Assembly (NCBI GenBank): GCA_029864405.1
Contig: JAOTTP010000006.1
Span: 1-64,000 of the forward strand
DNA from: Nitrospirota bacterium
GTDB taxonomy: Bacteria; Nitrospirota; Nitrospiria; Nitrospirales; UBA8639
Direction: 5' to 3'
DNA length: 64,000 bases
Below the pieces are notes generated by a model. It made no database searches, was not told the DNA's origin, and was given only the letters and a program-made list of their open reading frames with translations. Each line of letters starts with the position of its first letter. Within the stretch, counting starts at the first letter, position 1. Positions 31,846 to 48,946 of the stretch are shown here, piece by piece. A program made the translations under genes and the position numbers.

Positions 31846-32631
31846 TCACAGGAGATGCCAGCCATTGGCCACGACCAATAACACCCCGATCACACCTATT
31901 AAGATGGCCACTCCCCGTCTCAGATGATGAGCAGGAATGGATCGAGTCACTTGTGCCCCAAAGATCAATCCGAGAAGGCTGCCGAGTAACAACAATCCCG
32001 TTAACACCACATCCAGGTGCGCCACCTTTAAATGGCCGACCACACCGCCAATGGAAATAAGGGCGATGATGAAAAGCGACGTTCCTATAGCTAAACGAAT
32101 GGGAAACCCCATGAGAAACATCAGGGCGGGAACAATGAGAAACCCTCCTCCAACCCCAAAAAATCCGGTCAACAGGCCCACTCCCCATCCGAAGGCCAAG
32201 GCTTTCAATGCACAACGCCCCGAAAATTCTTTTGCGCACCCGCTCGGGATGTCGTTGTGTTCTCCTTCATTATTTTTCCAAAACGTCCACACGCTGATAA
32301 ACAGGAGAAGATTGCCAAATAAAAAAAGGACCAAGGTTTCCGGAACAAGCTGCTGTCCATGAGCGCCAACCCACGCCCCGATCATACCAGTCAGGCTAAA
32401 CAAAATGGCGGAGACAACATGAACCCGCTGCTGCCGGCTTTCCTTCCATGCCCCAAAGAGTGAGGAATACCCCACGACGATAAGCGACATGGCCGTGGCA
32501 TTTTGTACCGGTACGCCGACCACATAGACCAATAAGGGAATGGCCACTAACGATCCGCCTCCCCCTGTAGTGCCCAATAACAGACCGACGAGTCCACCAG
32601 ACAGAAGCGCCAACAAATAGTGGAAGTCCAT
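31846..32631 (-). CDS. TauE/SafE-family anion exporter
   Basis: 261 residues, about eight membrane helices in two repeats, with the family's glycine-rich motifs GTTGGGGSLVAIPLL near the N-terminus and GFFGVGGGFLIVPALMF in the second half. Family members export sulfite, sulfoacetate or related sulfur anions through the inner membrane. It is the last gene of the sulfur-oxidation island on this strand, so export of sulfite or sulfate, or import of a sulfur substrate, is likely. Convergent with the K+ channel gene. Confidence 0.87.
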   Translation of the reverse strand: MDFHYLLALLSGGLVGLLLGTTGGGGSLVAIPLLVYVVGVPVQNATAMSLIVVGYSSLFGAWKESRQQRVHVVSAILFSLTGMIGAWVGAHGQQLVPETLVLFLFGNLLLFISVWTFWKNNEGEHNDIPSGCAKEFSGRCALKALAFGWGVGLLTGFFGVGGGFLIVPALMFLMGFPIRLAIGTSLFIIALISIGGVVGHLKVAHLDVVLTGLLLLGSLLGLIFGAQVTRSIPAHHLRRGVAILIGVIGVLLVVANGWHLL

Positions 32632-32855
32632 TAGAAGCTCAGATGCCAGATGGAAAAGGTAGAAAGAAAAGGTGAAAGAATAATGTCTGAGCCGTCACAA
32701 TCTGAGGACACTTTTTAAGCAGCACGGAGCGCATGCAGCCATCGTGGACGGCAACGAACTGTCGCAAAAAGCATGATTAGGAAAGAAGGGAGGAGGAGAA
32801 TGCCCCTCTTTCCTTAGATTACCCTAGAAAGACAGAAAGGGGGAAAGTTCCTTCC

Positions 32856-33098
32856 TCATTGAAGTAACGAATCCCGCTTAATCTGATCAATGCGAACGTC
32901 CCGCTCCTTTTCATCGATTTTCCCATCTTTGAAATCTTGTTCGACCTGATTTTTCTGGTTATTCAAGTGTAACTCATACCCGCCGGCACCAGCAGCGGCC
33001 CCACCGAGCGCCCCAAGTCCAATATTCCCACCAGTCCCACAACCTGTCAAACTGAACATGGCTAAACCGATAATCAATACTGAAGATGCGTTTTTCAT
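32856..33098 (-). CDS. Small lipoprotein with glycine-zipper
   Basis: 80 residues. Signal ends at SLTGC (Cys20). A Gly/Ala-rich segment GLGALGGAAAGAGGY (glycine zipper, membrane-inserting type) is followed by a charged helix rich in Lys, Asp and Glu. Similar small lipoproteins are common in the outer membrane; function unknown. An AGGAGGTATGTATG site precedes the start on this strand. Confidence 0.72.
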   Translation of the reverse strand: MKNASSVLIIGLAMFSLTGCGTGGNIGLGALGGAAAGAGGYELHLNNQKNQVEQDFKDGKIDEKERDVRIDQIKRDSLLQ

Positions 33099-33229
33099 AC
33101 ATACCTCCTGGAATGAGAAAAATTATGAATAGAGGAGGGGGATAATGAAGAATATTGTAGGAGAAAGTGGATCAGGAGACAAGGCGATGGGAACTCAGGA
33201 AAGAGGTTATCGAGAGTCTGTTAATCCGA

Positions 33230-33490
33230 CAGCGGAAGAGCACTCGAATTTCCCACGAAAAAAAATTGCAATCCCTCTAACCCTTTCATTACGTCATAGC
33301 ATCCCAGTGAGTGCCCTCGTCTCACGAATACAACACATAATCAATCCCGCAACCCTGATCAAAGGACATTCCTTGAACCAAAGGTTTGGGGCTACCGGAA
33401 ATAGATTCGCCATTTGAGAGAGTGAGAACAAAGAAACAAACTGAAATTGTCGAAATGGGAAGCATGTACTTGTGGTTCTCACCGCATGAG
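33230..33490 (-). pseudogene. Remnant of a second SorA-like sulfite dehydrogenase
   Basis: One minus-strand frame reads LPISTISVCFFVLTLSNGES, then GKP-like SPKPLVQGMSFDQGCGIDYVLYS, a stop, DEGTHWDAMT, a stop. It aligns without gaps to the part of SorA (gene at 41469-42713) that reads VPIGKMTVRSFITNLEND..., KPCTIKGITFDQGYGIDRVLFS, VDGGQQWQSAQ. This is the C-terminal Mo-cofactor dimerisation domain. No start, at least two stops, and the molybdenum domain is absent. It lies directly after the PAS kinase gene. Confidence 0.75.
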
Positions 33491-33596
33491 CGCCACACAC
33501 AAAAATTATCTGGAAAGCATTCGGGGAGACTCATTCGGATCAAGGGGTTGGCTTTTTCGGCAAGGCCTGAGGAATACATAATATTCCACGCTTCTA

Positions 33597-35549
33597 TTAG
33601 GTGTCTTCAGGCCCTGATGACCGAGATGCTCCGATTTGAGATACGGGAAGGACCAGACGAAAAATTGTTCCGCAGCCTTCCTCACTTTCTACCGTGATGT
33701 GACCGCGATGGAGATCGATGGCATCTTTGACGATTTTGGTACCGAGGCCAGTTCCTTCTTTTTTGGTGCTAATGGCCCGAGTAGTAAAGAGGCGATCTCG
33801 AACTTCAGGCGGCATTCCTCTCCCGGTATCGGCCACAGCTAACTCTACCGTCTCGGGACGCGGTCCCGGAGATCCGCTGACGGTGACTGATCCTCCACGG
33901 GGCACTTCGGGGACGGCATTGTTGATGAGATTGTAAAAGGCATTGAATAATCGACGTTCATCTGCATCGATAACAGGCAGGGCATCAAGCCCATCGGTCA
34001 AGAGGGTAATGCCTTTTTCTGCGGCGTATGTGCGAAGAGTGTCGAGCACGCCATCCACAATAACTTCAATGCGACAGGGTGTGAAATGTGGAGGACTGGT
34101 GACACCTTTTACGGCATCTGCAATTTCCCGCACACGGTCCTGAATGCGTCGGGCATTGGTGACGATCATTCGTATCAGGTCCAGACTGTTGGCATAACTA
34201 GTCTCCGCACCTTTAGCCTTTTCTCGGATTAAGGTGGGGAATTGTTCGTCCAATTCATCCTTTAACAAATCTGCACCCGACAGCACAGGCATCAACATAT
34301 TTTTAATATCGTGCCCGATATCTCCAAGGACTCGTGTGACCTCCGCCAATTTGGCTTCCTCCAATAACTGAGTGGCCATACGTTTCTTCTCTGTGATGTC
34401 CTGAAACGTGACCACGGCTCCCGCTAAATTCCCTTGGTCATCCCAAATTGGGGTACTAGTATACTGAGCCGGAAAGCTTGTCCCATCCTTTCTCCAGAAC
34501 ATCTCATCATCTCCCTGATGGACCAGACCGTCCTTGTACGCTCCATAAATGGGACATTCTTCTTTGGGGTAAGAGCTGCCATCAGCCTTGGTGTGATGCC
34601 AGAGGGAATGGCTTGGTTGTCCAATTAATTCCTGCAGGTCATAGCCCAACAGGGTGGCGGCGGCGGGGTTAACAAAGGTATGTTGCCCATTCAGGTCAAG
34701 ACCAAAAATGCCTTCCCCGGCGGCAGTGAGAATTCGCTCGGTATGCAGGCGAAGTTCCGTGATGGCGCGTTCGGCCGCTTTACGTTCGGAGATATCTCGA
34801 AATGTCACCACGGCGCCAACAAGAGTTCCTTGCTCATCCCTCATCGGGGTGCTGGTATATTCGGCCGGAAAACTCGTGCCATCTTTACGCCAGAATACTT
34901 CTGTGTCGCCATGATGAACCTGTCCATCTTTATACGCCCCATAAATGGGGCAGTCTTCTTTGGGGTAGGGACTACCATCAGCTTTAGTATGATGCCAGAG
35001 GGAATGACTAAACCGTCCGATCAATTCCTGCGGGTCATAGCCCAGTATGGACGCGGCGGTAGGGTTGACAAAAGTCGTCTTCCCCTCCAAATTCAATCCC
35101 ATGATCCCTTCTCCCGCGGCTTCTAGGATGAGTGCGTTTTGCCGTTCCAGACTTTGAATGGTCTGACGAGCCAGGTGGCGTTCACGTTCATCCCGGACGA
35201 ACGCGCAAATATAATCCTGCCCTTCAAAGGAAAAATTTTTACAGGAAACCTGGACAGGAATAAGCTCTCCTGACTTACTTTTGAGGGTGGATTCAAAATT
35301 ATGGAGGTCTCCGGTTTTGAGGTGTTCCCAACGGTCTGGCCATGCCTCAGATGGCAAGCTCGGGCAAAAGGCATGGACCGCCATACCTTCCATTTTCTCG
35401 GAAGAATATCCTAATAACTGGCTGGCCACCGAATTGGCCCGATGGCATCGGCCCTCTTTGTCGACCCAGAAAATAGCATCAGGGGCATTCAGGATGGTGA
35501 AGTGCGCCAACTGGGCATCTCGATCGAAATTCTTAGGAAAGTCTGGCAT
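33597..35549 (-). CDS. PAS-domain sensor histidine kinase
   Basis: 650 residues, no membrane segment, so it senses inside the cell. Three PAS domains (about 15-125, 135-255, 260-390); the second and third are near copies, sharing LWHHTKADGS, YPKE-CPIYGAYKDG and FWRKDGTSFPA-YTSTP. The H-box GHDIKNMLMP carries His413, and the HATPase domain has N-box NLINNAV, ADTGRGMP, and GTGLGTKIVKDAIDLH. PAS with FRDI/FQDI ends are often haem or flavin binding, but no ligand can be read here. No response regulator is adjacent; the sigma-54 activator at 47561 has no receiver domain, so it is not an obvious partner. Confidence 0.88.
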   Translation of the reverse strand: MPDFPKNFDRDAQLAHFTILNAPDAIFWVDKEGRCHRANSVASQLLGYSSEKMEGMAVHAFCPSLPSEAWPDRWEHLKTGDLHNFESTLKSKSGELIPVQVSCKNFSFEGQDYICAFVRDERERHLARQTIQSLERQNALILEAAGEGIMGLNLEGKTTFVNPTAASILGYDPQELIGRFSHSLWHHTKADGSPYPKEDCPIYGAYKDGQVHHGDTEVFWRKDGTSFPAEYTSTPMRDEQGTLVGAVVTFRDISERKAAERAITELRLHTERILTAAGEGIFGLDLNGQHTFVNPAAATLLGYDLQELIGQPSHSLWHHTKADGSSYPKEECPIYGAYKDGLVHQGDDEMFWRKDGTSFPAQYTSTPIWDDQGNLAGAVVTFQDITEKKRMATQLLEEAKLAEVTRVLGDIGHDIKNMLMPVLSGADLLKDELDEQFPTLIREKAKGAETSYANSLDLIRMIVTNARRIQDRVREIADAVKGVTSPPHFTPCRIEVIVDGVLDTLRTYAAEKGITLLTDGLDALPVIDADERRLFNAFYNLINNAVPEVPRGGSVTVSGSPGPRPETVELAVADTGRGMPPEVRDRLFTTRAISTKKEGTGLGTKIVKDAIDLHRGHITVESEEGCGTIFRLVLPVSQIGASRSSGPEDT

Positions 35550-35651
35550 GGTGTTTTTATGCTGAGTCCCCGAGAACAGGGAAACAAGTCCCCGGCTCTC
35601 GGGATAATAATGAATGTCGAGATCTCACGTGAATTTCAGGCCACTCTCCGT

Positions 35652-37082
35652 TTATTGAGCCAAAGTCCGGATGTATTGAATGAGTTGCCATACCTGTTCG
35701 TCAGGCAATCCAGTGAAGGCCATCATACCGGTTCCAGGTGAGCCATTCTTGATAACCCAGAACAATTGGCCGTCAGGAAGATTGCTCATCGTCTGACCAC
35801 AGGTGAAGTTGCGAGGGGGCGGAACTAACCCACCACCTAATGGCCCTCGCCCATCACCTTTTTCGCCATGGCATTGTTTGCAGGCCAAGGGTTGGGCTGT
35901 TTCATGGAACAGTTTTTTCCCGGCATTCACATTGGCGTTGCTTGCCTGGAGCGGATTCACCATCTTCCGGAAATCTGCAGGGGCATTCGGGGTCTTGCGT
36001 GGCTGTGGGCAAACACCCGACGGACCCGCCCCAGGAGTCCCGCTCATGATAGATGGAGGTGCACCCTTAAATGTGGTTCGTAAAAAGGCAATCACATCCG
36101 CTACACCCTGTTGTCCGATGGTAAGGCCCCAATAGGGCATTGAGGGGGATTTCCCGACGCTACGCCCTCCGTGATTGACCACGTTGTAGAGGTAGTCCAT
36201 GGGGAGCTGATCAAAAGCGATGTTGGCATGGATAGCGGGCTTGGGATTTAAGCCCGATGCCGCCGGACCATCCCCTTTGCCTTCCGGGCCATGACATTGT
36301 GAGCAGTATTCTTTATAAATCAGTTTCCCTCGGTCCGCACTGGGTTGGGAAAATTCAGTGCTTATCCAGGGTTCGTAGTACGTGAAATCTTTCACCCCCA
36401 GGGTCATCAAGTACCCAATCACGCTTCGCAGTTGTGGCTCGGTGGCATCTGCTAAAAACTCTCCGCTATGGGGCGTGAAATCTTGGGGATTGATGCCAAA
36501 GCGGAACAACCAATCAGCATTATAGCGGTTTCCCGAATCGGCTAAATTGGCGCTTTGCGGGCCGCCCAAGAGTTGCCCGTTTTCTTCAATCGTGTGGCAA
36601 CCGATGCATGCATGTTCCTTAAAAATGAACGCCCCAACCTCCCCATCTTTTTTGGTGACTTTTGTCAGATCAAAGGCGCCGACGGTCACCCGGGGATCAA
36701 CAAAATGGTTTTCAAAATAATCGGCGAGGGCATTCGCCTGCGCGGGCGTCACGGCAATGTGCACATCCGGCTCTTGCCCTTGATCCCAACGATAATTCTT
36801 GGCATACAGCATCGGTTCTTTCCCTGTCAGCCATCGAATCAGCCAATCCCGTTGATACTTGCTGCCACCCCACATTAGATCCGGAGCTTTCAAATTGAAC
36901 CGGCTCTCCCCCTCTCCTTGGAACTTATGACACGTGGAGCAGTTCGTTTTAATGAGCGACTCCGCCTCTTGCCCATCAGAGGCCAAGAGAGAAGCTGGGA
37001 ATACAAAAGGGACGAAAACACTCAAGGCGAAAGCGAAAAGCATCAAGGGCCGTTTAGGGACCAGGAGTAAAAAACGGTTCAT
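35652..37082 (-). CDS. Tetraheme cytochrome c, exported
   Basis: The start at 37082 has the GCGGAGG site and a signal peptide (ending near SLLAS); longer in-frame starts add only unlikely sequence. Four CxxCH haem sites are seen: CSTCH (48), CIGCH (159), CSQCH (260) and CKQCH (401), each in its own cytochrome-c-like domain, giving a 476-residue periplasmic protein. The last domain (LFWVIKNGSPGTGMMAFTG) is closely related to the small cytochrome at 43889-44362 and to a relic at 42819. Probably carries electrons from sulfur oxidation to the respiratory chain. Preceded by a possible sigma-54 promoter and palindrome. Confidence 0.88.
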   Translation of the reverse strand: MNRFLLLVPKRPLMLFAFALSVFVPFVFPASLLASDGQEAESLIKTNCSTCHKFQGEGESRFNLKAPDLMWGGSKYQRDWLIRWLTGKEPMLYAKNYRWDQGQEPDVHIAVTPAQANALADYFENHFVDPRVTVGAFDLTKVTKKDGEVGAFIFKEHACIGCHTIEENGQLLGGPQSANLADSGNRYNADWLFRFGINPQDFTPHSGEFLADATEPQLRSVIGYLMTLGVKDFTYYEPWISTEFSQPSADRGKLIYKEYCSQCHGPEGKGDGPAASGLNPKPAIHANIAFDQLPMDYLYNVVNHGGRSVGKSPSMPYWGLTIGQQGVADVIAFLRTTFKGAPPSIMSGTPGAGPSGVCPQPRKTPNAPADFRKMVNPLQASNANVNAGKKLFHETAQPLACKQCHGEKGDGRGPLGGGLVPPPRNFTCGQTMSNLPDGQLFWVIKNGSPGTGMMAFTGLPDEQVWQLIQYIRTLAQ

Positions 37083-37261
37083 TGTGAAAACCTCCGCAGT
37101 TGGAAACAGGAGTGAAATTCTTATATTGGATCTCAGGCGAAATTTTCTCGGAAATGGTCTTTCTGTTGGATGTGAGGAAAAATCCCCCCTCACTCTCAGG
37201 ATAGCCTCTGAGGTGTTTTGCCCCAAAGAGGCAAGTTCCAATCTCCTCATAAGGAAGCATA

Positions 37262-37276
37262 GCAAAATTAACACCA
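37262..37276 (-). promoter_or_regulatory. Possible sigma-54 (-24/-12) promoter
   Basis: On the minus strand TGGTGTTAATTTTGC then T: GG and GC are exactly ten bases apart and the -12 half TTGCT is perfect, though the -24 half is weak (TGGTG for TGGCA). It lies 180 bases before the tetraheme cytochrome start and about 120 bases downstream of a TTAACTGTTAAG element, the same order as at 47396. Confidence 0.45.
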
Positions 37277-37378
37277 TCTTGAGTACCAACACGATAAAAA
37301 GGAAAATCACCAGAATTAGGGCAGTTTTGGTAGAAGAGAGGAGAAAAATTAAAAATTATTGGCAGGGATCTTCCAGAT

Positions 37379-37402
37379 GTTAACTCTTAACAGTTAAAGA
37401 GA
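37379..37402 (-). promoter_or_regulatory. Possible enhancer site, TTAACTGTTAAG type
   Basis: On the minus strand TTTAACTGTTAAGAGTTAAC. It shares TTAACTGTTAAG plus TTAAC with the palindrome at 47524-47549. It is placed about 120 bases upstream of the possible sigma-54 promoter, as expected of an activator site. Confidence 0.45.
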
Positions 37403-37454: not shown

Positions 37455-39110
37455 CTATTTTCCCTGAAAACTCAAATAGCCGCCGGTGAGGTTAAAAACG
37501 TTGGTGAAACCATGTTGAAGGAGAATGCGTGCTGCGAGATAGCCGCGTAAGCCCACATGGCAATAGACGACCGTTTCTTGGGAGGGATCGAGTTCCGATA
37601 GGTGGTCTCTCAAATCATCCACGGGCACGAGACGGGCTTGTGGAAGATGCGTTTTCTGGTATTCGGCAGGGGTTCGGACATCTAATAATTGAAGAGAAGG
37701 GTTCATCGCCAATTTCTTTTGTAATTCCTCTCCGGTAATCGTTTTCACTTCTCCTCGTAAGGTATTGGCTGCGACAAAGCCAGCCATGATAACCGGGCCT
37801 TTGGCTGAGTTAAACTGCGGGGCATAGGCCAAATCCAATTGTTCTAATTCTTGGACCCTCATCTTGCCGTGTAACGCGGTAGCTAGGATGTCAATGCGCT
37901 TATCAACTCCCTGCTCCCCGACGATTTGAGCTCCGAGCAGTCTTCCGGTTTCCTGCTCCACCACCAATTTCATATGCAGAGCTGCAGCTCCGGGGTAGTA
38001 ACCCGCATGGTCTAAGGGGTGGGTGAGTGAGACGAAATACTTCAAGCCGTGAATTTTAGCTTCCTGTTCAGTGAGCCCTGTTTTGGCGGCCGTGAGGCCC
38101 ATGCTCTCAACAATGGCTGTTCCGAGTGCTCCGTGAAATCGTAAATCTCCACCGGCAGCATTGGCTCCGGCAACCCGCCCCTGTTTATTCGCGGGTCCGG
38201 CTAGAGGAATCCGGGTTCGCTTGCCGGTCACCAAGTGCCTGGTTTCCACCGCGTCCCCTGCGGCATAAATATCGGGATCCGAGGTTTGCTGGTGGTCATT
38301 GACCGAAATCCCGCCCGAATCACCTATGGCGAGTCCGGCCTCTCTGGCCAGCTGTAATTCGGGACGAACTCCGATCGAGAGAATGGCTATGTCCATGGGA
38401 AGCCGAATACCGCTTTCCAACTCGGCTTCTTTCGCCAACTCGCCAATTGGATGAAAACTTTTAATCCCATCGCCGACAATGATCTCCACATGTTTCTCTT
38501 GTAAGTGAGCAGCCACGAATTTGGCCATATCAGGATCAAATGGAGGAAGGATTTGAGGAGCCTTTTCCACGATCGTCACCGTCCGGCCTCGGTTTTTCAG
38601 GGCCTCAGCCGTTTCCAGTCCAATAAATCCCCCACCAATGATTAGCGCTTGTTGAGTGGGATAATTTTTCAGATAGGCCTTGATGGCGTCGGAATCTGGT
38701 ACGGTTTTGACTGTAAAGATGTTTTTGGCATGAATGCCGGGTAGGTCGGGTACGATGGCCCCCGCGCCAGGAGCCAAAATCAATGTGTCATAGGGGTGGG
38801 AGGTGATCTCCTGAGTCATCAAATTTTTCACATGGACGCATTTAGCGGGTCGATCAATTTTGAGGACTTCGTGTAAGACGTGGACCTGAACCCTGAATCG
38901 TTTCCAAAACCGCTCTGGAGTTTGAAGCAGAAGGTCATCACGATCCTGAATGGTCTCTCCGATATAGTACGGGAGGCCACAGTTGGCAAAGGACACATAC
39001 GGCCCTTTTTCAAACATCACGATGTCTGCAGCTTCGTTGGTTCGGCGTGCCTTGGCGGCCGCGCTCGCCCCGCCGGCCACCCCTCCGACAATAATGATTT
39101 TGATGGACAT
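37455..39110 (-). CDS. CoA-disulfide-reductase-type flavoprotein with C-terminal rhodanese
   Basis: 551 residues. FAD-binding GGVAGGASAAA (9-19), the single active-site cysteine in SFANCGLPYYIG (Cys44), NADH-binding IIGGGFIGLE, the second FAD motif DIYAAGDAVE, a dimerisation domain (about 330-440) and a rhodanese domain (about 455-551) with the catalytic loop CHVGLRG. This is the CoADR-RHD layout. Known members reduce CoA persulfide, CoA disulfide or polysulfide with NAD(P)H. In a sulfur-oxidising island it may shuttle sulfane sulfur from CoA or glutathione carriers. 27 bases separate it from pyruvate kinase upstream. Confidence 0.92.
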   Translation of the reverse strand: MSIKIIIVGGVAGGASAAAKARRTNEAADIVMFEKGPYVSFANCGLPYYIGETIQDRDDLLLQTPERFWKRFRVQVHVLHEVLKIDRPAKCVHVKNLMTQEITSHPYDTLILAPGAGAIVPDLPGIHAKNIFTVKTVPDSDAIKAYLKNYPTQQALIIGGGFIGLETAEALKNRGRTVTIVEKAPQILPPFDPDMAKFVAAHLQEKHVEIIVGDGIKSFHPIGELAKEAELESGIRLPMDIAILSIGVRPELQLAREAGLAIGDSGGISVNDHQQTSDPDIYAAGDAVETRHLVTGKRTRIPLAGPANKQGRVAGANAAGGDLRFHGALGTAIVESMGLTAAKTGLTEQEAKIHGLKYFVSLTHPLDHAGYYPGAAALHMKLVVEQETGRLLGAQIVGEQGVDKRIDILATALHGKMRVQELEQLDLAYAPQFNSAKGPVIMAGFVAANTLRGEVKTITGEELQKKLAMNPSLQLLDVRTPAEYQKTHLPQARLVPVDDLRDHLSELDPSQETVVYCHVGLRGYLAARILLQHGFTNVFNLTGGYLSFQGK

Positions 39111-39137: not shown

Positions 39138-40577
39138 TTACACGACCAAATGGGCTTTGATGATATTGGTTCCGAAGGACTGCCCCAATCGTTCCCCGGT
39201 GACGATGACAATGAGCCGGCCTTCTTGAAGGAGGCCTAGTGTTTTTAAATGATCCTGGGCGGCCTTGATTCGTTCATCGGTGTCATCAATTTGAGGAAAG
39301 ACACATGAGACAACGCCCCACACTAAAGCCAATTGACGGGTGACGGTTTGGGAGGGAGTCAGCGCAAAAATCTTGACCGTCGGTCGATTGCGGGCCAATA
39401 ACATGGCTGTATGGCCAGACTCGGTGAATACCATAATGGCTTGGGCGTCAATAGATGTTGCAAGAGAGACGGCAGCCTCACAGACCGATTCGGGAGTAGA
39501 ACGTACGGTCCTGTTTGTCGAATCAAATTTTTGGCGTTGGCGAAAAATTTCTTTTTCTGTTTGTCGAATAATCCTATCCATGACCTGGACCGATTCGATT
39601 GGAAAGTTCCCCGTCGACGTTTCGGCCGACAACATGACGGCATCCGTTCCGTCCAGCACCGCGTTCGCCACATCTGAAGCTTCGGCGCGAGTGGGAGATG
39701 GATTTCGAGTCATCGATTCCAGCATTTGCGTGGCTGTGATCACGGGCTTTCCCATACGATTGGCCTGTGCGATGATTTGCTTTTGCAGAAGCGGGACTTC
39801 TTCGGGGCTTATCTCCAAAGCCAGGTCCCCTCTGGCAATCATCACCCCATCTGCCACATCAAGTATTTCATCAAGGCATGTCAGGGCTTCAGGCCTTTCG
39901 ATTTTAGCAATGACGGGAATTAGCATTGATCGATCGGCCAGAGCCATTTGGAGTGTTTGAATATCCTGCGGACTTCGAACAAAGGAGAGGGCGACATAAT
40001 CGGCTTGACCATCAATGGCCACTTGAAGATCATCCGCGTCTTTCTCCGTAAACCCCGGAATGTCGAGCGGGAGGCCAGGGAAATTTACACCTTTATGTGA
40101 GGTGACCTTCCCTCCAACCAATATTTTGCAGATCAGTCGTTCCGTTTCCTGTCTTTCCACGGTGAGGGAAATGTTCCCGTCATCAATTAACACGATTTGA
40201 CCGATTTCCATTCGATCCGGGAAATGGGAAAGATTGACCGGCAGCTCATCACGCCAGTCGTTTTGGCTTGAGAGTTGATGTTGGAAGCCTGGTTTCGTCA
40301 CCAGTGCGATATTCCGGCCTTGCTGCAATAGGGTTCCTTGGCCCGGGATGACCCCGACGCGGATTTTGGGACCTGCCAAATCTACGAGGATGGCGAGTGG
40401 AGTCTTTTCCTCAAGAGCAAGGTGACGAAGGCGTTGAATCGTTGTCCTGTGCCAATCGGCGGTTCCATGAGACATATTGAATCTGGCGACATTGATCCCG
40501 GCATTCAGGAGTCGTTTCAAAATTTCGGGGGAGGAAGTCGCAGGGCCAATCGTGGCAACGATTTTAACTTGGCGCAT
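39138..40577 (-). CDS. pyk: Pyruvate kinase
   Basis: Makes pyruvate and ATP from phosphoenolpyruvate and ADP. Family motifs are VKIVATIGPATSS at the N-terminus, FNMSHG, the catalytic lysine block VIPVIAKIERPEAL, MIARGDLALEISPEEVPLLQK and TATQMLESM, and GTDAVMLSAETS. The length is normal. In-frame ATGs at 40619 and 40577 are both possible; 40577 gives the usual N-terminus. Its place between sulfur genes is unexpected; it may share their transcript, which is inference from spacing. Confidence 0.95.
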   Translation of the reverse strand: MRQVKIVATIGPATSSPEILKRLLNAGINVARFNMSHGTADWHRTTIQRLRHLALEEKTPLAILVDLAGPKIRVGVIPGQGTLLQQGRNIALVTKPGFQHQLSSQNDWRDELPVNLSHFPDRMEIGQIVLIDDGNISLTVERQETERLICKILVGGKVTSHKGVNFPGLPLDIPGFTEKDADDLQVAIDGQADYVALSFVRSPQDIQTLQMALADRSMLIPVIAKIERPEALTCLDEILDVADGVMIARGDLALEISPEEVPLLQKQIIAQANRMGKPVITATQMLESMTRNPSPTRAEASDVANAVLDGTDAVMLSAETSTGNFPIESVQVMDRIIRQTEKEIFRQRQKFDSTNRTVRSTPESVCEAAVSLATSIDAQAIMVFTESGHTAMLLARNRPTVKIFALTPSQTVTRQLALVWGVVSCVFPQIDDTDERIKAAQDHLKTLGLLQEGRLIVIVTGERLGQSFGTNIIKAHLVV

Positions 40578-40793
40578 CGGGTAAGTCCCAAAATTGGCTA
40601 AATGTGAGCTAACAGACATGGGTGGGGAAACGTGAGAGATTTTATGACAACAACCGTCAATATGTTTTCGACGTATTGTTCATGATTTATGGATCCATGA
40701 AGGGGAAATACTCGTGTGAGTGGGGAAATCTGAGCAATATATTGCGTTGCCGATGGGGTAGCTGATTGGTAAGGCGAGCAAGATTCATCGGTT

Positions 40794-41468: not shown

Positions 41469-42713
41469 TTAGGTTGTATGAACATTCACCGTTTCGATCA
41501 CATTACGGAGATATCCACTCGGATTCCATCGGGCGCTGAACCGCTGTGATTCTCCAATCCGATTGATGGCCAATGACTGAAGTGCATAAGAACTGCCAGG
41601 CTCCGGTATAAATTTCGCTTCCCATGGTCGGAAGCTGAAATCCCCATAATCCTTTCCTAATTGAGCGGATTGCCATTGTTGGCCTCCATCCACGGAGAAC
41701 AATACGCGATCAATGCCATACCCCTGGTCAAAGGTAATGCCTTTAATGGTGCAAGGTTTCCCTCCTGGTATGGTTCGATCATTTTCCAGGTTTGTGATAA
41801 AGGAGCGAACGGTCATTTTGCCAATCGGAACGGTACCCGTTAAGGCTTCTCCTGGTTGCACGCAGTGGCAAGGATCAGCCGGCAGGCGATAGGCATGTGT
41901 CGTCCAAAAATTTTGATCCGCCTGATTCAACACTTCAATGTCATTCAGCATCTTCACCCAATAGGTCGCATACCATCCAGGTACAACGAGGCGAAGCGGA
42001 AAACCGTTCAGCATGGGAAGTGCCTCCCCATTCATGGAATGGGCGACCAACACTTCCTCCAGAAGCGCATCCTCAAGGTTCAGCGATTTTCGAAAATCGG
42101 GCGTGGCTGTTGCGACCGGTTGATCAAGGCCATCGAACCGGACCTGCACCGCGTCCCCTTCTATTCCTGCCCTGCGAAGGAGATCACGGAGTCTGATTCC
42201 CTTCCAATTGGCATTTCCCATTGCCCCATTCCCCCATTGTCCTCCGGGTACCCGGGGTTGGAAAAATCCGCGACTATTTCCCCCGCATTGGCAGACAGCC
42301 GCAATTTCAACTTGTTCAAATTGCGTTTTCAGTTCTTCAAGGCTCAGAGACAAGGATTGATTGACCCGCCCGCGAATGTTCAGTCGGAAAGTGTTCACAT
42401 CAATTTCACGTGGGATATTGGCAAGATGCCAGCGAACAAAAAATGCATCATTGGGCGTGAAGATGTCGTCATTAAAAATATGAAAGGGTGTTTCTAATTG
42501 TGGAGGCCTCGTGGTCATTACCATGAGCGGTCGCTTTTGTCGAAAAGCGACCAGGGGTCGACGGCCCCGCTCAAAAGGAAGATTCGCATACGGGGCCATA
42601 TTTGGGGACTGATTAGCCCAAAGACCTTTGGGATTGATAAGTATAGTAGCTCCAAGAGCCAGGCTCCCCTTTAAAAATCGTCGGCGGTGTATTCCCGGCT
42701 TTATTTCATCCAT
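41469..42713 (-). CDS. sorA: Sulfite:cytochrome c oxidoreductase molybdenum subunit SorA
   Basis: Oxidises sulfite to sulfate in the periplasm. The start at 42713 gives a twin-arginine signal (RRRFLKG at 10-16), so the folded cofactor protein is exported by Tat. The molybdopterin domain (about 65-290) has the Cys ligand in VCQCGGNSRG (Cys143 by alignment), HSMNGEALPMLNGFPLRLVVPGWYA split normally, and the C-terminal dimerisation domain (about 300-410) has IKGITFDQGYGIDRV and WEAKF. Sulfite oxidase and SorA/SoxC-like proteins share this fold; the sorB partner decides for SorA. Partial copy at 33230-33490. Confidence 0.9.
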   Translation of the reverse strand: MDEIKPGIHRRRFLKGSLALGATILINPKGLWANQSPNMAPYANLPFERGRRPLVAFRQKRPLMVMTTRPPQLETPFHIFNDDIFTPNDAFFVRWHLANIPREIDVNTFRLNIRGRVNQSLSLSLEELKTQFEQVEIAAVCQCGGNSRGFFQPRVPGGQWGNGAMGNANWKGIRLRDLLRRAGIEGDAVQVRFDGLDQPVATATPDFRKSLNLEDALLEEVLVAHSMNGEALPMLNGFPLRLVVPGWYATYWVKMLNDIEVLNQADQNFWTTHAYRLPADPCHCVQPGEALTGTVPIGKMTVRSFITNLENDRTIPGGKPCTIKGITFDQGYGIDRVLFSVDGGQQWQSAQLGKDYGDFSFRPWEAKFIPEPGSSYALQSLAINRIGESQRFSARWNPSGYLRNVIETVNVHTT

Positions 42714-42818
42714 GGGGATTTTTTCCTTTTTTTTAAGGGAAACCAAGGGCGGGCTACAGGCTGTAAATCAACTAATTACTTTTCAAGGGAAACACGTAAA
42801 ACCCCCCGGTTGTTATCC

Positions 42819-43130
42819 TTATCTCGCCGATGTAGGAAGACAATGCCTCAATTGACATATCTGGTCATCAGGCATTCCAGCGAACGCCATCATGCCCATT
42901 CCTGGCGATCTATTTTTGATAATCCAATACAATTGTTCATTGAAATACTCTGCCTTGTTTCGAACGGGTAAGATTTCTGGAGGGAGATTCACTGCGGCCC
43001 AACGAACTTTTTCCGTCTCCCTTGGCTCCAGGAGGTTGTTTGAATGTTGTGAAGGAACGGATAGTATCTTCGGGCGAAAACCCTTGATGCCACCAGCTGC
43101 GAACAAATTGATCGTTGAGTGAAAGGACCT
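42819..43130 (-). pseudogene. Relic of a small cytochrome c
   Basis: The frame ending near 42840 reads EQLYWIIKNRSPGMGMMAFAGMPDDQICQL, clearly the end of a cytochrome like those at 35652 and 43889 (QLFWVIKNGSPGTGMMAFTGLPDEQ). Upstream, a second frame has GAKGDGKSSLG and PSRNLT, where a haem-site continuation is expected, but the CxxCH itself is lost (QPPGAKGDG). A frameshift joins the pieces near 42990. It lies between sorA and the membrane-anchored protein at 43151. Confidence 0.7.
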
Positions 43131-43150
43131 TGGAGCTACAACCGCTGCTC

Positions 43151-43624
43151 CTAGCAGGGTTGTCCGTTAAATACGCAAGGCTTGTATCGGCTCACATCGA
43201 AGTCCATTTCTTCCTGGTAGACCAATTCGTTGCCATTGACACCATCCACAAACGGGTCATTCCACATCGTATGGTTCCACCAATAAAAAATGGGAAACTC
43301 TATGGTGTAGTACACAGGATTGCCATAGGTGCTTCGAACATGTTGTTCGACTGTCCGTCCGGTGACGTAGTCGGCTTTTCCATTCCCTTTTAAGGAATAC
43401 AGAGACAGCAGTAGGCGAGATTCCTGATCGTAGATTTCATCGATACGCGTACTTTCATCGGGTTCTGAAGGCAAGGACGAGGTCAGAGGGGGGGAAGGCG
43501 TTTCAACGGAAGTAAACACCAGCCAGGTTGTCAGAATGACTAGAGGCATAACCGTCATGAGCCAAGTCCTCCTTCCAAAATGTGGTCCGGAGGATGGCCT
43601 CGATACGGAGCCTTCCTCGCGCAC
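43151..43624 (-). CDS. Membrane-anchored periplasmic protein, hypothetical
   Basis: 157 residues, GTG start. One N-terminal helix (RRTWLMTVMPLVILTTWLVF, about 18-37) followed by a Pro/Ser linker and a compact domain rich in Tyr and Trp (ESRLLLSLYSLKGNGKADYVTG, split normally; YYTIEFPIFYWWNHTMWNDPFVDGVNG). The domain carries Asp/Asn-Gly loops that could bind calcium. No family recognised. It sits among cytochromes and sulfite oxidation genes, so a role in that electron chain is possible but unproved. Confidence 0.6.
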   Translation of the reverse strand: MREEGSVSRPSSGPHFGRRTWLMTVMPLVILTTWLVFTSVETPSPPLTSSLPSEPDESTRIDEIYDQESRLLLSLYSLKGNGKADYVTGRTVEQHVRSTYGNPVYYTIEFPIFYWWNHTMWNDPFVDGVNGNELVYQEEMDFDVSRYKPCVFNGQPC

Positions 43625-43633
43625 GTGACAAAT

Positions 43634-43888: not shown

Positions 43889-44362
43889 TTATTCTTTTCT
43901 TGATTCTACGCCATTGCCAAATGATCTCACGTACAATATCACATGCCAGGCTTCGTCCTCAGTCAAGACCAGGGGAATGAACGAGGCCATATCCGTCCCC
44001 GGACTCCCGTTTTTTAAAATCCAAAAGAGTTCCCCATCGGTGCGGGCCGCTTGCCAGGTCTTGTCGGTAAAATTCCGGGGAAGTTTTCCCACTAACCCAG
44101 GGATATTTCCCAACCCTTTTCCGTCGCGTCCATGACAGGTAACACAAAACGCTTTACCGTGAAAAATATGTTTGCCCTTTTCTATATTCTCTTCCATGAA
44201 AGAGATGGGGTTCTTCCAAGATTTGGCTTCTTCGATCTGACCGACCGGCACACGCGGTTTGAGGACTTCGGGATCGGCCGCGAAGGTCAAGAGTGGAGTG
44301 CCCAAGGCAAAGAGAAATACCCCAAGCCATCGCTGTAGTTGTACTAGATCGACTCTTTTCAT
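43889..44362 (-). CDS. Monoheme cytochrome c, exported
   Basis: 157 residues from the ATG at 44362 with a signal peptide (about 12-29, ending TFAA). One haem site CVTCHGRDGKG (Cys73) in a class I cytochrome domain, with the block LFWILKNGSPGTDMASF that supplies the Met ligand side and a tail HVILYVRSFG. It is a close relative of the last domain of the tetraheme protein at 35652. Probably a soluble periplasmic electron carrier in the sulfur island. Confidence 0.85.
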   Translation of the reverse strand: MKRVDLVQLQRWLGVFLFALGTPLLTFAADPEVLKPRVPVGQIEEAKSWKNPISFMEENIEKGKHIFHGKAFCVTCHGRDGKGLGNIPGLVGKLPRNFTDKTWQAARTDGELFWILKNGSPGTDMASFIPLVLTEDEAWHVILYVRSFGNGVESRKE

Positions 44363-44382
44363 GGTTATGCTCTGTTCAAGAG

Positions 44383-44410
44383 CATGGGGGATCCGGTTGG
44401 ATCCCCCATG
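44383..44410. repeat. Perfect 12-bp hairpin between two genes of the island
   Basis: CATGGGGGATCC, loop GGTT, GGATCCCCCATG. It lies 26 bases after the DUF1264 gene and 20 bases before the cytochrome start. No T-run follows on the minus strand, so rather than a classical terminator it may be an mRNA-stability or partial-termination element. Confidence 0.6.
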
Positions 44411-44435
44411 CATGGAATCGTTATTGAATGATGAG

Positions 44436-44954
44436 TTATTCGGACCTGGTGAAAATATGTCCCAAGGATTGCGGGAATGTCACCGTCCCATCGGGAAACT
44501 CTTGGCCCTTTTGCCACAAATGGTAGATTACGCCATCGGTCTTGGAAGCGGCCTCAGCAATCTCTGCGGCTTTTTCAGCAGGGGCAATTACTTGAACACG
44601 TCCTGTTGCAATTTCCACTTTGTGGTCATGGAAAAACCGGTGCCACTGGATCAAGGGGAGTTTTCTCGAAAGATCCTTGGCAACAAAATATTCGATGGCA
44701 ACGAGGGGAGCGCTGTGGTCGGTTGATTCAAACAAGAGGCATTGCAGGATTTTGTCTGAAATACCCTTACAAAAGTGATGAAAGGGGCCCCCCACAGTCC
44801 CATCATGCATCAGGTGTGGAGCCGTCACGTGAATGTCATAACCTGCAGCAGGACTTGGGCTTCCCTCTTCACTCATAGCCGGAGTGGTCATACACCCCAT
44901 AGCCAGTAAGCTCAAAACCCCTAGTAATAAACATGAACGGATTGAACGATACAT
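44436..44954 (-). CDS. DUF1264 protein, exported
   Basis: 172 residues. Signal sequence at the N-terminus (about 5-30; a lipobox-like LAMGC at 17-21 suggests a lipoprotein). The mature part follows the DUF1264 pattern: DIHVTAPHLMHDG, HHFCKGISDKILQCLLFES, APLVAIEYFVAKDL, LIQWHRFFHDHKVEIATGRV and FPQSLGHIFTRS at the end. The plant members are oil-body-associated proteins; bacterial function is unknown. The many His and Cys could bind a metal. Island position suggests a periplasmic sulfur or electron-transfer accessory, which is inference. Confidence 0.8.
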   Translation of the reverse strand: MYRSIRSCLLLGVLSLLAMGCMTTPAMSEEGSPSPAAGYDIHVTAPHLMHDGTVGGPFHHFCKGISDKILQCLLFESTDHSAPLVAIEYFVAKDLSRKLPLIQWHRFFHDHKVEIATGRVQVIAPAEKAAEIAEAASKTDGVIYHLWQKGQEFPDGTVTFPQSLGHIFTRSE

Positions 44955-45022: not shown

Positions 45023-45246
45023 CTATCGTGTGTTAGCTAATGGCCTTCTTCTTTCCGCCCATTTCGTTGATTTTGGCTGTTCGGTAACTCCCTTCTGCTC
45101 TTGACATGTTCGGTTTTGTAGAATCATGGGGTCGAAGGTTTCTCCACAGTTGAGACAGCGCCATATGGATAACGCAGATAAGGCTTCATTTGGTTATAGA
45201 CTTGATCGCTCATTAACAAGCCTTCGCATCGTGGACAATGCATCAT
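45023..45246 (-). pseudogene. Small zinc-ribbon gene with a frameshift
   Basis: A good start (AAGGAGATCG, then ATG at 45246) opens MMHCPRCEGLLMSDQVYNQM, continues to LRYP, and then the coding sense moves to another frame with WRCLNCGETFDPMILQNRTC, ending at a TAG at 45023. Read in one piece it resembles the zinc-ribbon protein at 28013. The shift falls near 45165. It may be a real mutation or an error in the sequence. Confidence 0.6.
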
Positions 45247-45271
45247 CGATCTCCTTTCTTCCCCTTTAATA

Positions 45272-45832
45272 TTAGGGGGAGTTTCTAATTCGGTTCATGG
45301 GTAGCTTGGATAACAGCATGCCCATTACACACGAATCTGTTAATCCGGCGTGAAGGAGCCCGGCTCCAACCATTGCGGGGAGGAAAAAGAATCCACTATG
45401 AACTGTGAAGCCTAAGGCTACCCCTATCAGAATCAGCCCCCCTGCGATGGCTCGAACCTGTCCTTCAAGGGAAATTCGATGTTGCCCTCGGACCACAGGT
45501 TTGCCTTGATCAACCCAGGCAGTGATGCCTCCTTCCAGAATTTCACAATTCGTCAGGCCATGCTTGGACAAATATTCGTAAGCAATCTTCACCCGGTTCT
45601 GTGTTCGACACACCAATATGATGGGGTGTTCATGAGAGAGGGTCTTCAGTTCGTCCAGATATGCATGTAAATCTGGCAAAGGAATATTTCGAGCGCCCGA
45701 AATATGCACACCTTCAAATTCTTGCGGTGTTCTGACATCGATATAGATAGGGGCTTTTGCGGGGTTAGAACGTTCCCGCTGAGCGCTTAGCTTTTCGGAT
45801 TTTTCTTCTAGGTGTTCTAGCATCGTGCTCAT
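45272..45832 (-). CDS. Rhodanese with membrane (DUF2892) tail
   Basis: 186 residues from the ATG at 45832 (GGAGGAGAACAT site). The rhodanese domain is at about 20-125 with catalytic Cys75 in LVCRTQNR, followed by a DUF2892-type part with two membrane helices (AIAGGLILIGVALGFTV and FFFLPAMVGAGLLHAGL). The loop CRTQNR places it among sulfurtransferases. It lies 28 bases after the persulfide dioxygenase gene and is probably translated from the same mRNA, passing sulfane sulfur at the inner membrane. Confidence 0.87.
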   Translation of the reverse strand: MSTMLEHLEEKSEKLSAQRERSNPAKAPIYIDVRTPQEFEGVHISGARNIPLPDLHAYLDELKTLSHEHPIILVCRTQNRVKIAYEYLSKHGLTNCEILEGGITAWVDQGKPVVRGQHRISLEGQVRAIAGGLILIGVALGFTVHSGFFFLPAMVGAGLLHAGLTDSCVMGMLLSKLPMNRIRNSP

Positions 45833-45860
45833 ATGTTCTCCTCCATCTATTGGGTAAATC

Positions 45861-47291
45861 TTATCTGCTGCAACTGGTGGTGCATGTGGATTGAAGCTTT
45901 TGCCCATGATGACCCCAGGTGGTGAGCCAGGCGTCATATCCCCCGATAAGATCCATCGCTTGGGATCGTCCGGCTTTTTCCAGAATTCCTATTGCGGTGG
46001 ATGAGCGATATCCACTGGCGCAATGTACAACCACCGGGCCGTCTAGCGGGATTTTGTGAATCTGTTCTGCCAGATGCGGCAACGGGATATTGATGCTCTG
46101 GTCAATATGGCCAGACTCCCATTCTTTTTCTGATCTCACGTCGACGACCATTGGTGGATGGGTGGTCGTCAACAGTTCTGCGAGAGCTTGGGCGCCGATC
46201 CGTTGGACCTTTTGAACCAAATCGGGCCTCTCCATAAGGGCCTGCATCCCGCCGCTTAGATATCCCACCACGCGGTCAAACCCAATACGGCCTAACCGTT
46301 GAATCGCCTCCCTTTCGTACCCGGGCTCGGCAATAATGACGATGGGGCATTTGGGGGCAAGAACGGTTCCGGCCCAGGTCGCAAATTTCCCCACTAATCC
46401 GATGTTGAGACTCTCTTTGAGATGCCCTCCCGCATAATCAACCGCGTTTCGGACATCGAGTACCTGAGCCACGTTTTTCTGATAATCAAGGACTGTTTCC
46501 AGAGAAAGAGGGGTTAAGCTTTTTTGCAGGACATCATCCAGAACAGGATGCTTTTCCCTATTCATCTTGGCGTCATAGCCAAAGTACGAAGGGGCTTCTG
46601 GTTGGTCGGCCGTGACCAATCCCACAAATTCTTCTTTAGTCATGGGTTGAAGCGCATAATTTTCCCATCGCTGCTTGCCCAATGTGGAGACGGTTTCATT
46701 GCTCAAATTTTTCCCGCACATGGACCCCGCTCCGTGGGCGGGATAGATCAGCGTTTCATCGGGGAAGCGCATGAGTTTATTTCGCAACGAATCAAATAAT
46801 TGTTCCCCTAATTCTTCTGCGGTAACGCCAACAGAGGCCATGAGATCCGGTCTGCCTACATCCCCAATGAACAGGGTGTCTCCAGTCAGCACGCAGTGCG
46901 GATGATCGGCACTCCTACTCAGGTCGTAGACGGCAAGCGAAATGCTTTCCGGGGTATGCCCTGGGGTTTCCAATACCTGAATTCGCACAGACCCAAACTC
47001 AAGAACCTCTCCGTCCTGAAAGGTTCGGATGGGGAAGTCGGTTTGCGCTTTGGCGCCCAGACAAATCTCAGCACCAGTTTGTCGTTGCAGTTCCAGATGC
47101 CCGGCTAAAAAGTCTGCATGGAAGTGGGTAAGAAAAACATAACGAATCTTCCACTCGTGGCGTCGAGCTTCCTGCAGATATTGCTCGACGTCGCGTTGGG
47201 GATCCACGACCACAGCGGTTGAGGTTTTGTTATCGCCAATCATGTAAGACGCGTGGGCTAAACAATTTAGATAAAATTGTTTCACAATCAT
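45861..47291 (-). CDS. Persulfide dioxygenase (metallo-beta-lactamase fold) with two rhodanese domains
   Basis: 476 residues. The beta-lactamase-like domain (1-250) has the metal motif THFHADFLAGH (His56, His58, Asp60), ETPGHTPESIS, LTGDTLFIGDVGRPDL and YPAHGAGSMCG, the pattern of ETHE1-type enzymes that turn glutathione persulfide and oxygen into sulfite. Two rhodanese domains follow: the first (about 265-360) lacks a catalytic Cys (AEPGYERE), the second (about 370-470) has it in VVHCASGYRSS. Similar fusions are known in bacteria (e.g. CstB). First gene after a strong sigma-54 promoter; its product sulfite is the substrate of SorAB. Confidence 0.92.
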   Translation of the reverse strand: MIVKQFYLNCLAHASYMIGDNKTSTAVVVDPQRDVEQYLQEARRHEWKIRYVFLTHFHADFLAGHLELQRQTGAEICLGAKAQTDFPIRTFQDGEVLEFGSVRIQVLETPGHTPESISLAVYDLSRSADHPHCVLTGDTLFIGDVGRPDLMASVGVTAEELGEQLFDSLRNKLMRFPDETLIYPAHGAGSMCGKNLSNETVSTLGKQRWENYALQPMTKEEFVGLVTADQPEAPSYFGYDAKMNREKHPVLDDVLQKSLTPLSLETVLDYQKNVAQVLDVRNAVDYAGGHLKESLNIGLVGKFATWAGTVLAPKCPIVIIAEPGYEREAIQRLGRIGFDRVVGYLSGGMQALMERPDLVQKVQRIGAQALAELLTTTHPPMVVDVRSEKEWESGHIDQSINIPLPHLAEQIHKIPLDGPVVVHCASGYRSSTAIGILEKAGRSQAMDLIGGYDAWLTTWGHHGQKLQSTCTTSCSR

Positions 47292-47395
47292 GATGAATAC
47301 CCTCCCCTCCTTCTTGAAAAGGAGCATTGGTCAAAATCAACTGAGCTCACTTCGAAATGTTCTTTTAAGAGTTTTTCCATTGAGCAGAGTAATAC

Positions 47396-47410
47396 GCATG
47401 GATTGTGCCA
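47396..47410 (-). promoter_or_regulatory. Sigma-54 (-24/-12) promoter
   Basis: On the minus strand TGGCACAATCCATGC: full -24 half TGGCAC, GG and GC ten bases apart, -12 half ATGC. It lies about 105 bases before the persulfide dioxygenase start, with a palindrome about 130 bases upstream and a sigma-54 activator gene just beyond. Confidence 0.8.
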
Positions 47411-47523
47411 GATTTTTTTTCGAAGCCATATTTAAAAAATCTCAATAAAAACAATGTATTAGTGAAATGCTCATACCATGGAAAAGCCTGAGGATGGCCT
47501 AAAAAACAGAGGAAGTGAACGGA

Positions 47524-47549
47524 ATGCGTTAACTGTTAAGTTAACGCAT
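47524..47549. promoter_or_regulatory. Palindrome, likely activator binding site
   Basis: ATGCGTTAAC, six bases TGTTAA, GTTAACGCAT: ten perfect pairs. It is about 130 bases upstream of the sigma-54 promoter at 47396 and 12 bases after the activator gene, the normal distance for an enhancer site. No T-run follows, so a terminator role is less likely. A related sequence lies at 37379-37402. Confidence 0.6.
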
Positions 47550-47560
47550 GAACGATTTGG

Positions 47561-48946
47561 TTATGCGTTGGGAGGAGTGTGAAGCTGTTTAATTTTCTTC
47601 CACAGGGTGACTCGACTCACCCCGAGAAGCTTGGCTGCTTCCGTTTTGTTCCCTTTGGCCTGTCGGAGAGCTTCTACGATACGAGCTTCCTCATCCTGGG
47701 GAAGGGAGGGTTCTGCGTTGGATGAGAGGTTTTTGGGGCTTCTGGGTGTTGGAGGACGTTGAACTTCTGTAGGGAGATCCCACAGGGTGAGACAATCGCC
47801 ATTAACAGTAACGAAGGCGTGTTCGATCGCATTCTTCAATTCGCGGACGTTGCCGGGCCAGCCATATTCCATTAATCGGTTGAGGGCATCCTGGGCAATG
47901 TCTCCTATTTCGCGATGAAACGCCTTGGAATTGGCAGCCATGAAATGGTGAACTAAGAGGGGAATATCTTCTCGTCTTGCTCGCAAGGGCGGAAGAGTAA
48001 TCTCGAAGACATGAATCCGATAATAAAAATCTTCCCGAAGCGTGCCTTCGGCCATGAGAGCTTTTAAATCCCGATTGGTGGCCGTAATGAGACGGACATC
48101 GACCCGCATGCCCCGTTCATCTCCTACCCGGCGAATCTCACTTTCTTGCAGGACCCTGAGCAATTTTAACTGCAAAAGAGGGCTGGTATCTCCGATTTCA
48201 TCTAAAAATAACGTCCCACCGTCAGCGGCTTGAAAGACTCCGATTTTATCGCGTATGGCGCCAGTGAATGCGCCCTTCACATGCCCAAAGAGTTCGCTTT
48301 CAAGCAAGGTTTCTGGAATGGCTGAGCAATTGATGGCGAAAAACGGTTTGTCTTTTCGACCACTCAGGGTGTGAATGGCTCGCGCCGCCAGTTCCTTCCC
48401 TGTCCCGGATTCCCCGGTGAGTAGCACCGTGACATCGCTTTGCGCAGCCAGCCTGAGCCGGCGAAACACTTCTTGCATCGCAGGGCTTTTGCCGATGAGC
48501 TGTTGAAAGGCCTCACGGGATTTCGCCTGTTCCTCCAGCACGGCAATTTTCTGGTTATTCAAAAGAAACGTGGTCAGGTCGGTAAAGGTTCCCACGGCGC
48601 CCGCGACCTGGCCTTGTTCATCCCGGATGATTGAGACGTTGCCGAAGAGATAGAGTTCGCGGCCGTCTTTCCCAAGAACTTTGCATTCCTGGTTGCAGAT
48701 ACCCCATGGATACGGGGAGGGGTTGTCCAAAAAATCCGTGAGGATGCCAAAGCCCTTACAATTTTGACCTTCTAAAATATGACAGGATTGTCCCAGGACA
48801 TCCTGACTGGAATATCCCGTAATGCGAGCCGCCCCGGTGCTCCAGGCCACAATGTGACCCTTGGCATCAACGGTGAACACGCCATCAGCCATCACGTCTA
48901 CCATGTTGCTGAGAATGGCGGGATTTTTCCGGAAATCTAATTCCAT
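47561..48946 (-). CDS. Sigma-54-dependent activator with cysteine-rich PAS domain
   Basis: 461 residues. An N-terminal PAS domain (about 10-125) with four cysteines (55, 63, 84, 88: [10 protein letters not shown] and ICNQEC) that could bind metal or react with sulfur species. The AAA+ domain has Walker A GESGTGKE (178-185), the sigma-54 contact loop GAFTGA (225-230), [11 protein letters not shown] and [12 protein letters not shown] Fis-type helix-turn-helix ([23 protein letters not shown], split normally) ends the protein. No receiver domain, so it senses the signal itself. It lies upstream of the promoter and palindrome it probably controls. Confidence 0.93.

Follow-up and report, generated by a model that had tools for sequence, protein, structure and literature searches.

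Known systems and the locus under study

The nearest described counterpart of the locus reported here is the FisR-PDO operon of Cupriavidus pinatubonensis and Acinetobacter baumannii, in which a sigma-54-dependent activator lies by the gene of a persulfide dioxygenase (PDO), with a sigma-54 promoter and TauE (PMC7315123, PMC9774590; these and the other cited papers are represented by excerpts). In A. baumannii, FisR controls PDO, SQR and TauE (PMC7315123). The nearest described enzyme is CstB, which makes thiosulfate (PMC9774590). We analyzed a stretch of 64,000 nucleotides from a Nitrospirota bacterium (assembly GCA_029864405.1, contig JAOTTP010000006.1; hereafter the window), in which a block of minus-strand genes, 31846-48946, encodes an activator and a dioxygenase of these kinds together with the sulfite dehydrogenase SorAB, a DUF1264 protein, cytochromes c and a TauE/SafE-type exporter. 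With moderate confidence, we read the block as part of a sigma-54 regulon for reactive sulfur that was built round an older DUF1264-cytochrome c pair.

The regulatory domain of the window's activator bears cysteines, as does that of Cupriavidus FisR; four are invariant here as opposed to three in FisR, which was compared by its description only. A search for a comparison FisR among plasmids gave only weak PAS matches in 16 records. Activator and dioxygenase genes are co-directional in the window and divergent in A. baumannii. The locus further differs from the FisR-PDO operon in that no SQR was seen, and in the presence of the DUF1264-cytochrome c core, of SorAB and of a second unit with the same sites. 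Unlike CstB, the dioxygenase is found in a nitrite oxidizer and under a sigma-54 activator.

A putative SorAB (sulfite:cytochrome c oxidoreductase) of lineage IV Nitrospira has already been reported, and a dioxygenase, an activator or a promoter linked to it is not mentioned in the excerpts of these reports (PMC12342949, PMC10579370, PMC8115632). The words "dioxygenase" and "rhodanese" have 0 occurrences in the main text of PMC12342949, and the excerpt of PMC10579370 states that no phenotype is linked to sorAB in nitrite oxidizers. Our literature searches returned no account of the linked locus, its promoter code, the core or the sorAB replacement, which does not establish absence from print. 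The promoter code, the placing of PDO and SorAB in a common regulon, the core and the sorAB replacement are what the sequence comparisons appear to add. The published comparisons leave the role of SorAB in nitrite oxidizers open, and the common promoter code makes a precise test in cultured relatives possible; it also singles out DUF1264 and a small cytochrome as a constant, unexplained core. Should the proposed regulon operate in this way, nitrifiers exposed to reactive sulfur would draw electrons from it, with a bearing on nitrification where oxic and anoxic zones meet.

In its draft genome (2.89 Mb, 186 contigs, 66% complete), the window corresponds to contig C166. Contig C4 of the same genome carries NxrA (1145 amino acids; 1575 bits to PDB 7b04, "Nitrite oxidoreductase subunit A") and the adjoining NxrB (429 amino acids), and the organism is therefore a nitrite oxidizer, as the initial annotation, made from the letters of the window alone, had suspected. 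The same-genus set has 20 genomes (G000-G019); 48 genomes, 29 of them of family f1, were used for the search of composite promoter sites. Named contigs in the genome set are from Nitrospirales metagenome-assembled genomes (MAGs), such as NPIRA03, NPIRA06, HKST-UBA08 and SZUA-312. From the SorAB distribution in the excerpt of PMC12342949, we infer that f1 is lineage IV and that its group g4 is the sponge branch.

Promoter elements and the proposed regulon

The elements on which the proposed regulon rests are as follows.

47561-48946, minus strand: sigma-54-dependent activator; PAS domain with Cys55, 63, 84 and 88, AAA+ domain, Fis-type helix-turn-helix
47525-47548, no strand assigned: perfect palindrome with GTTAAC half-sites, candidate upstream activator site (0.02 expected in the window)
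47395-47410, minus strand: -24/-12 (sigma-54) promoter before the dioxygenase, position kept in relatives
45861-47291, minus strand: persulfide dioxygenase, CstB-like; metallo-beta-lactamase domain, Cys-less rhodanese-like domain, rhodanese with Cys
44436-44954, minus strand: DUF1264 protein; hydrophobic N-terminus that, by eye, resembles an export signal; ten His/Cys nearly invariant
43889-44413, minus strand: monoheme cytochrome c, constant partner of DUF1264 (family search, heme motif count)
41469-42746, minus strand: SorA, sulfite dehydrogenase catalytic subunit, with Tat-type signal (family searches, PDB 2blf)
40794-41459, minus strand: SorB fused to a second cytochrome c domain, two heme sites (family searches, CxxCH count)
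37379-37397, no strand assigned: GTTAAC array, remainder of a second promoter (comparison with relatives)
35652-37310, minus strand: cytochrome c with four CxxCH, cyt4 (family search, motif count)
33597-35549, minus strand: PAS histidine kinase (Pfam)
31846-32631, minus strand: TauE/SafE-type exporter (Pfam)

The activator was compared across 43 loci from 41 genomes (G001 contributes two pieces and G004 two loci). The four PAS cysteines are invariant in all 39 loci that have the residue. In 22 of 23 loci, the activator stop is followed at a distance of 134-197 bp by a -24/-12 box, where 0.008 are expected per 450 bp (computed with the 22 boxes themselves set aside), and ordered GTTAAC-type repeats occur in 19 of the 23, the arrays preceding the promoter. 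In the wider set, the box is found 110-229 bp after the stop in 38/43 loci; those without it are G004b, G001b (contig end), G012 (one mismatch), G030 and G038. Taken in the window alone, the sigma-54 consensus with two mismatches gave 29 matches where 34 are expected, and is worthless without the relatives. Both the 24-bp palindrome and the -24/-12 box lie between activator and dioxygenase, and 46 of the 48 genomes, including that of the window, have rpoN, the gene of the sigma-54 factor.

A composite pattern consisting of GTTAAC, a spacing of 97-127 bp and the -24/-12 box was sought in the 48 genomes. It gave 45 raw matches in the 29 f1 genomes versus 10 for the pattern read backwards; outside f1, there were 2 raw matches versus 7 for the backwards control. 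When overlaps are merged, 36 places remain in 24 of the 29 f1 genomes, and 32 of these (23 assigned from loci read, 9 by coordinates) are at either unit A, that of the activator, or unit B, which comprises response regulator, cytochrome, kinase and SorAB. The four at neither unit are G024 C75, G024 C135, G021 C193 and G009 678823, of which C75 and 678823 were read. Behind a composite-type promoter, unit B consists of cyt4, kinase, SorA, SorB and TauE in G006, and of response regulator, cyt4, kinase, cytochrome c, SorA and SorB in G020. Because the dioxygenase and SorAB units bear the same promoter elements in relatives, both would belong to one regulon.

Conservation of the gene block

The genes of the block are open and stand on the minus strand in the order that the initial annotation had listed; Pfam, NCBIfam and the open frames agree with its gene identities. 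SorA is present at 66% identity or more in 18 of the 20 same-genus genomes (absent from G010 and G014) and the dioxygenase at 74% or more in 16, while the activator is directly followed by the dioxygenase in 17. The order activator, PDO, rhodanese, DUF1264, cytochrome c and SorAB is kept in two single-contig genomes of the genus and in a second genus. The genes of activator, dioxygenase and SorA share a contig and a direction in the window, in G009 and G018 (single contigs), in G013, G015 and G016, and in G027 of another genus. In each of these stretches they are followed by pyruvate kinase and cyt4, and also by the CoA-disulfide reductase (CoADR)-like protein, of which G009 has only a fragment. 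TauE was observed in G009 and G018; the remaining stretches stop short of it. Some of the stretches also contain flanking genes for SelO, a cupredoxin, TrkA and a citrate transporter. Since the block recurs in relatives, the grouping of its genes is not due to chance.

In other same-genus genomes, the genes are parted by contig ends or rearrangements. The distance between SorA and activator is approximately 19 kb in G031 and more than 1 Mb in G023. A scattering of homologues through all close relatives, which the initial annotation had named as contrary evidence, is not the picture in the genus as a whole, although the genes are separated in some members by contig ends and rearrangements, and other genera carry the two units apart. 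The link it had drawn between dioxygenase and SorAB is upheld by the gene order of the genus and by the common promoter elements in relatives.

The DUF1264-cytochrome c core

Gene content behind the activator was counted in the 33 loci that extend at least 4 kb beyond it, which leaves out 10 shorter loci of the 43. DUF1264 and the cytochrome c are present in 32/33, the exception being G028, while the membrane rhodanese is found in 20/33 and a conserved 157-amino-acid protein in 17/33. The initial annotation had regarded the block as a sulfur-oxidation island; as a unit this is not supported, for the constant partners of the activator are DUF1264 and the cytochrome c. The pair also stands behind activator and promoter in the nine g4 genomes with the locus read.

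In family f3, DUF1264 adjoins the same cytochrome c in 7/7 loci read (L243-L249: G061, G065, G074, G049, G069, G063, G067), which represent seven of the 17 genomes with a DUF1264 match; this activator was not found in the seven at E 1e-140. As judged from these loci, the pair is found more widely in the order.

Ten His/Cys positions are kept across 28 DUF1264 sequences, which suggests metal or heme binding. The structure predicted from six sequences has a predicted local distance difference test (pLDDT) value of 52, a sequence search of the PDB gave nothing convincing (best E 0.13), and our literature searches returned a single passage, an excerpt on cold-shock fusions in Beggiatoaceae that gives no function. 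We consider it quite unlikely that DUF1264 and the cytochrome form a new exported redox pair that oxidizes (or senses and relays) periplasmic sulfide or sulfane sulfur in the place of SQR, and that in this family came under the control of a sigma-54 activator sensing persulfide, with PDO and SorAB carrying the route on to sulfate.

SorAB and its probable replacement

SorA aligns with the solved SorA 2blf at 437 bits over residues 54-422, and has a cysteine at the position of Cys104 of 2blf, which we take to be the molybdenum ligand. The end-to-end alignment and the SorB motif make the pair resemble SorAB sulfite dehydrogenase; unlike the SorAB type, the window's SorB has a second heme domain, and the scores are just under the NCBI thresholds (SorA 577 bits versus 600, SorB 84 versus 93 in NCBIfam). 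SorB has two CxxCH in the window, and two heme sites are present in 9/9 aligned sequences; the form of G007 has one. Two relics bear on the history of the genes.

42822-42941, minus strand: relic, end of a cyt4-like gene just before SorA (sequence comparison)
33232-33513, minus strand: relic of an older sorA at the kinase-TauE site (37% over 94 amino acids, E 2e-12)

A tree of 20 sequences divides SorA by location into two clades with supports of 100/96 and 100/100: one from the window's site, which is flanked by the 157-amino-acid gene and the pyruvate kinase gene, and one from the kinase-TauE site. The relic at 33232-33513 is of the kinase-TauE-site kind, and the dead cyt4-like end upstream of the window's SorA is reminiscent of genera where cyt4 precedes SorA. 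By this comparison, it seems that sorAB was not lost but replaced, and its function would therefore be wanted.

The dioxygenase and its product

The dioxygenase aligns along its full length to PDB 3tp9 and 3r2u, the latter presumably CstB of Staphylococcus aureus. It shares with both a metallo-beta-lactamase domain, a first rhodanese domain without Cys and a second with Cys, as found by Pfam, and the HGAGS-CGK segment. Its product may, by analogy with CstB, be thiosulfate rather than sulfite. The path from persulfide to sulfate put forward in the initial annotation is represented by its PDO and SorAB genes, and its first product may not be sulfite. An excerpt of PMC12345210 describes pdo transcripts of sediment Nitrospirota that rise after sulfide, at the level of the phylum only.

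Most of the closest dioxygenases that were found beyond Nitrospirales (57-60%) come from Acidobacteria-type MAGs (L089-L095, L101, L107), which hints at exchange.

SoxB and DsrA gave no match over the cut-off in any of the 48 genomes (0/48 each), the 66%-complete genome of the window included, and in these terms the earlier statement that sox and dsrAB are absent is confirmed. Weaker SoxB-like matches of up to 268 bits (cut-off 550) occur among the genomes searched.

SoxB-like matches of 258-268 bits were seen in five same-genus genomes; locus L173 (G009) has a SoxB-like protein at 1327-2937, minus strand (269 bits, cut-off 550).

Proposed mechanism and alternatives

In the regulon as we envisage it, a thiol-reactive signal, probably sulfane sulfur, would modify the PAS cysteines of the activator, which would bind the GTTAAC array and open the -24/-12 promoter. 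The cytoplasmic CstB-like dioxygenase would convert persulfide to sulfite, or to thiosulfate with its rhodanese, while the membrane rhodanese and the CoADR-rhodanese would pass on or reduce persulfide. TauE would export sulfite for oxidation to sulfate by periplasmic SorAB, and the electrons would reach, via the second heme domain of SorB and the small cytochromes, the pool that is also fed by nitrite oxidation. The main use is most likely the detoxification of reactive sulfur and the recovery of electrons into the cytochrome pool.

Several observations weigh against a sulfur regulon of this kind. Five of the 29 f1 genomes lack a composite site, and the window has it once; unit B of the window is devoid of the relatives' response-regulator gene and of the -24/-12 box, the GTTAAC array at 37379-37397 being what remains. 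Behind the activator, PDO is found in 17/33 loci only, and SorA within 7 kb in 7/33 only. When up to two mismatches are allowed, 8 of 78 genomes contain the palindrome, seven of them of the same genus and with it directly before the dioxygenase; the reversed control occurs in 9 of 78, so only the place of the palindrome speaks for it and not its count. The nine g4 genomes keep activator and promoter without a PDO match at E 1e-30 and with distant SorA-like matches or none; the signal therefore need not be sulfur. Finally, no SQR was found among the PF07992 proteins read, where one scoring under the limit would be missed, nor in the block by the family searches of its proteins, and sulfide is therefore no obvious substrate. 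The PF07992 reading covered 12/14 rows in G018, with the other two (4107241 and 555176) judged solely by their similarity to proteins of G000, together with parts of the lists in G000, G007, G009 and G013. The two flavoproteins nearest to SQR in build (G018, G007) match NADH dehydrogenases best. Excerpts of published work report SQR in few lineage IV genomes (PMC12342949) and none in N. marina (PMC8115632).

These two NADH-dehydrogenase-like flavoproteins, at L237 (G018) and L170 (G007), have terminal domains resembling cyclic-nucleotide-binding domains, and one also has CBS-like domains.

There is an appreciable, if minor, chance that the activator answers another stress (nitrosative, metal or redox), that its real target is the DUF1264-cytochrome c pair, and that the sulfur genes are later local additions. 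The near-constancy of the pair (32/33 loci versus 17/33 for PDO) agrees with this, as does its occurrence without this activator in the 7/7 f3 loci read; on the other hand, the further genes directly behind the activator are often of sulfur transfer (PDO 17/33, membrane rhodanese 20/33), and the SorAB unit bears the same sites. The proposal of the initial annotation, a lithotrophic persulfide-to-sulfate pathway as an extra energy source for the nitrite oxidizer, appears unlikely. PDO, TauE, SorAB and cytochromes do occur together and SorA is maintained by replacement, but neither an SQR in the proteins read nor SoxB or DsrA over the cut-off was found, CstB makes thiosulfate, and the lack of a sorAB phenotype in nitrite oxidizers, as reported, is no help to it. 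Energy gain has no direct support so far, and PDO itself conserves no energy, according to the excerpt of PMC12345210. That SorAB and TauE, both present, merely dispose of sulfite from sulfonates such as taurine is very improbable, as the scan of the block proteins showed no sulfonate-cleaving gene (a search of the genome was not made) and PDO and activator would be left unexplained.

Further features of the block and its surroundings

The remaining features of the block are listed below.

45272-45832, minus strand: membrane rhodanese; rhodanese domain and YgaP-like membrane segment
43642-43888, minus strand: relic of a beta-propeller-like gene, intact in G009, G018, G019 and G026
43151-43624, minus strand: conserved 157-amino-acid protein, no family match (Pfam/NCBIfam, relatives)
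39138-40619, minus strand: pyruvate kinase (Pfam, NCBIfam)
37455-39110, minus strand: CoADR-like protein with C-terminal rhodanese (Pfam Pyr_redox and rhodanese, NCBIfam)

The YgaP-like segment of the membrane rhodanese scores 22.6 bits (cut-off 25.3), and the CoADR-like protein 479 bits in NCBIfam, under the NCBI threshold of 579. The likely true starts of dioxygenase and membrane rhodanese are 47291 and 45832. The conserved gene at 43151-43624 is missing from the list of the initial annotation; a structure predicted for its product from five sequences had a pLDDT of 42 and was discarded. Sigma-70-like promoters number 21 versus 17 expected and terminator-like sites 30 versus 20 (sd 4.4), and neither count defines the transcription units. 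A palindrome in G023 was dropped as a regulon site, since a -24/-12 box does not follow it and a match of this kind is accounted for by the control rate.

The parent of the beta-propeller-like relic is a protein of 434 amino acids with only a sub-threshold YNCE beta-propeller match in Pfam and no match in a PDB sequence search. At 45060-45250, minus strand, two non-joining frames of a small Cys-rich (zinc-ribbon-like) protein were recognized by eye, and look like a pseudogene or an assembly error. Upstream of the activator, on the minus strand, are a 582-amino-acid protein without a Pfam family (49138-50886) and a cupredoxin-like protein (50971-51522), both of which recur at this place in many relatives.

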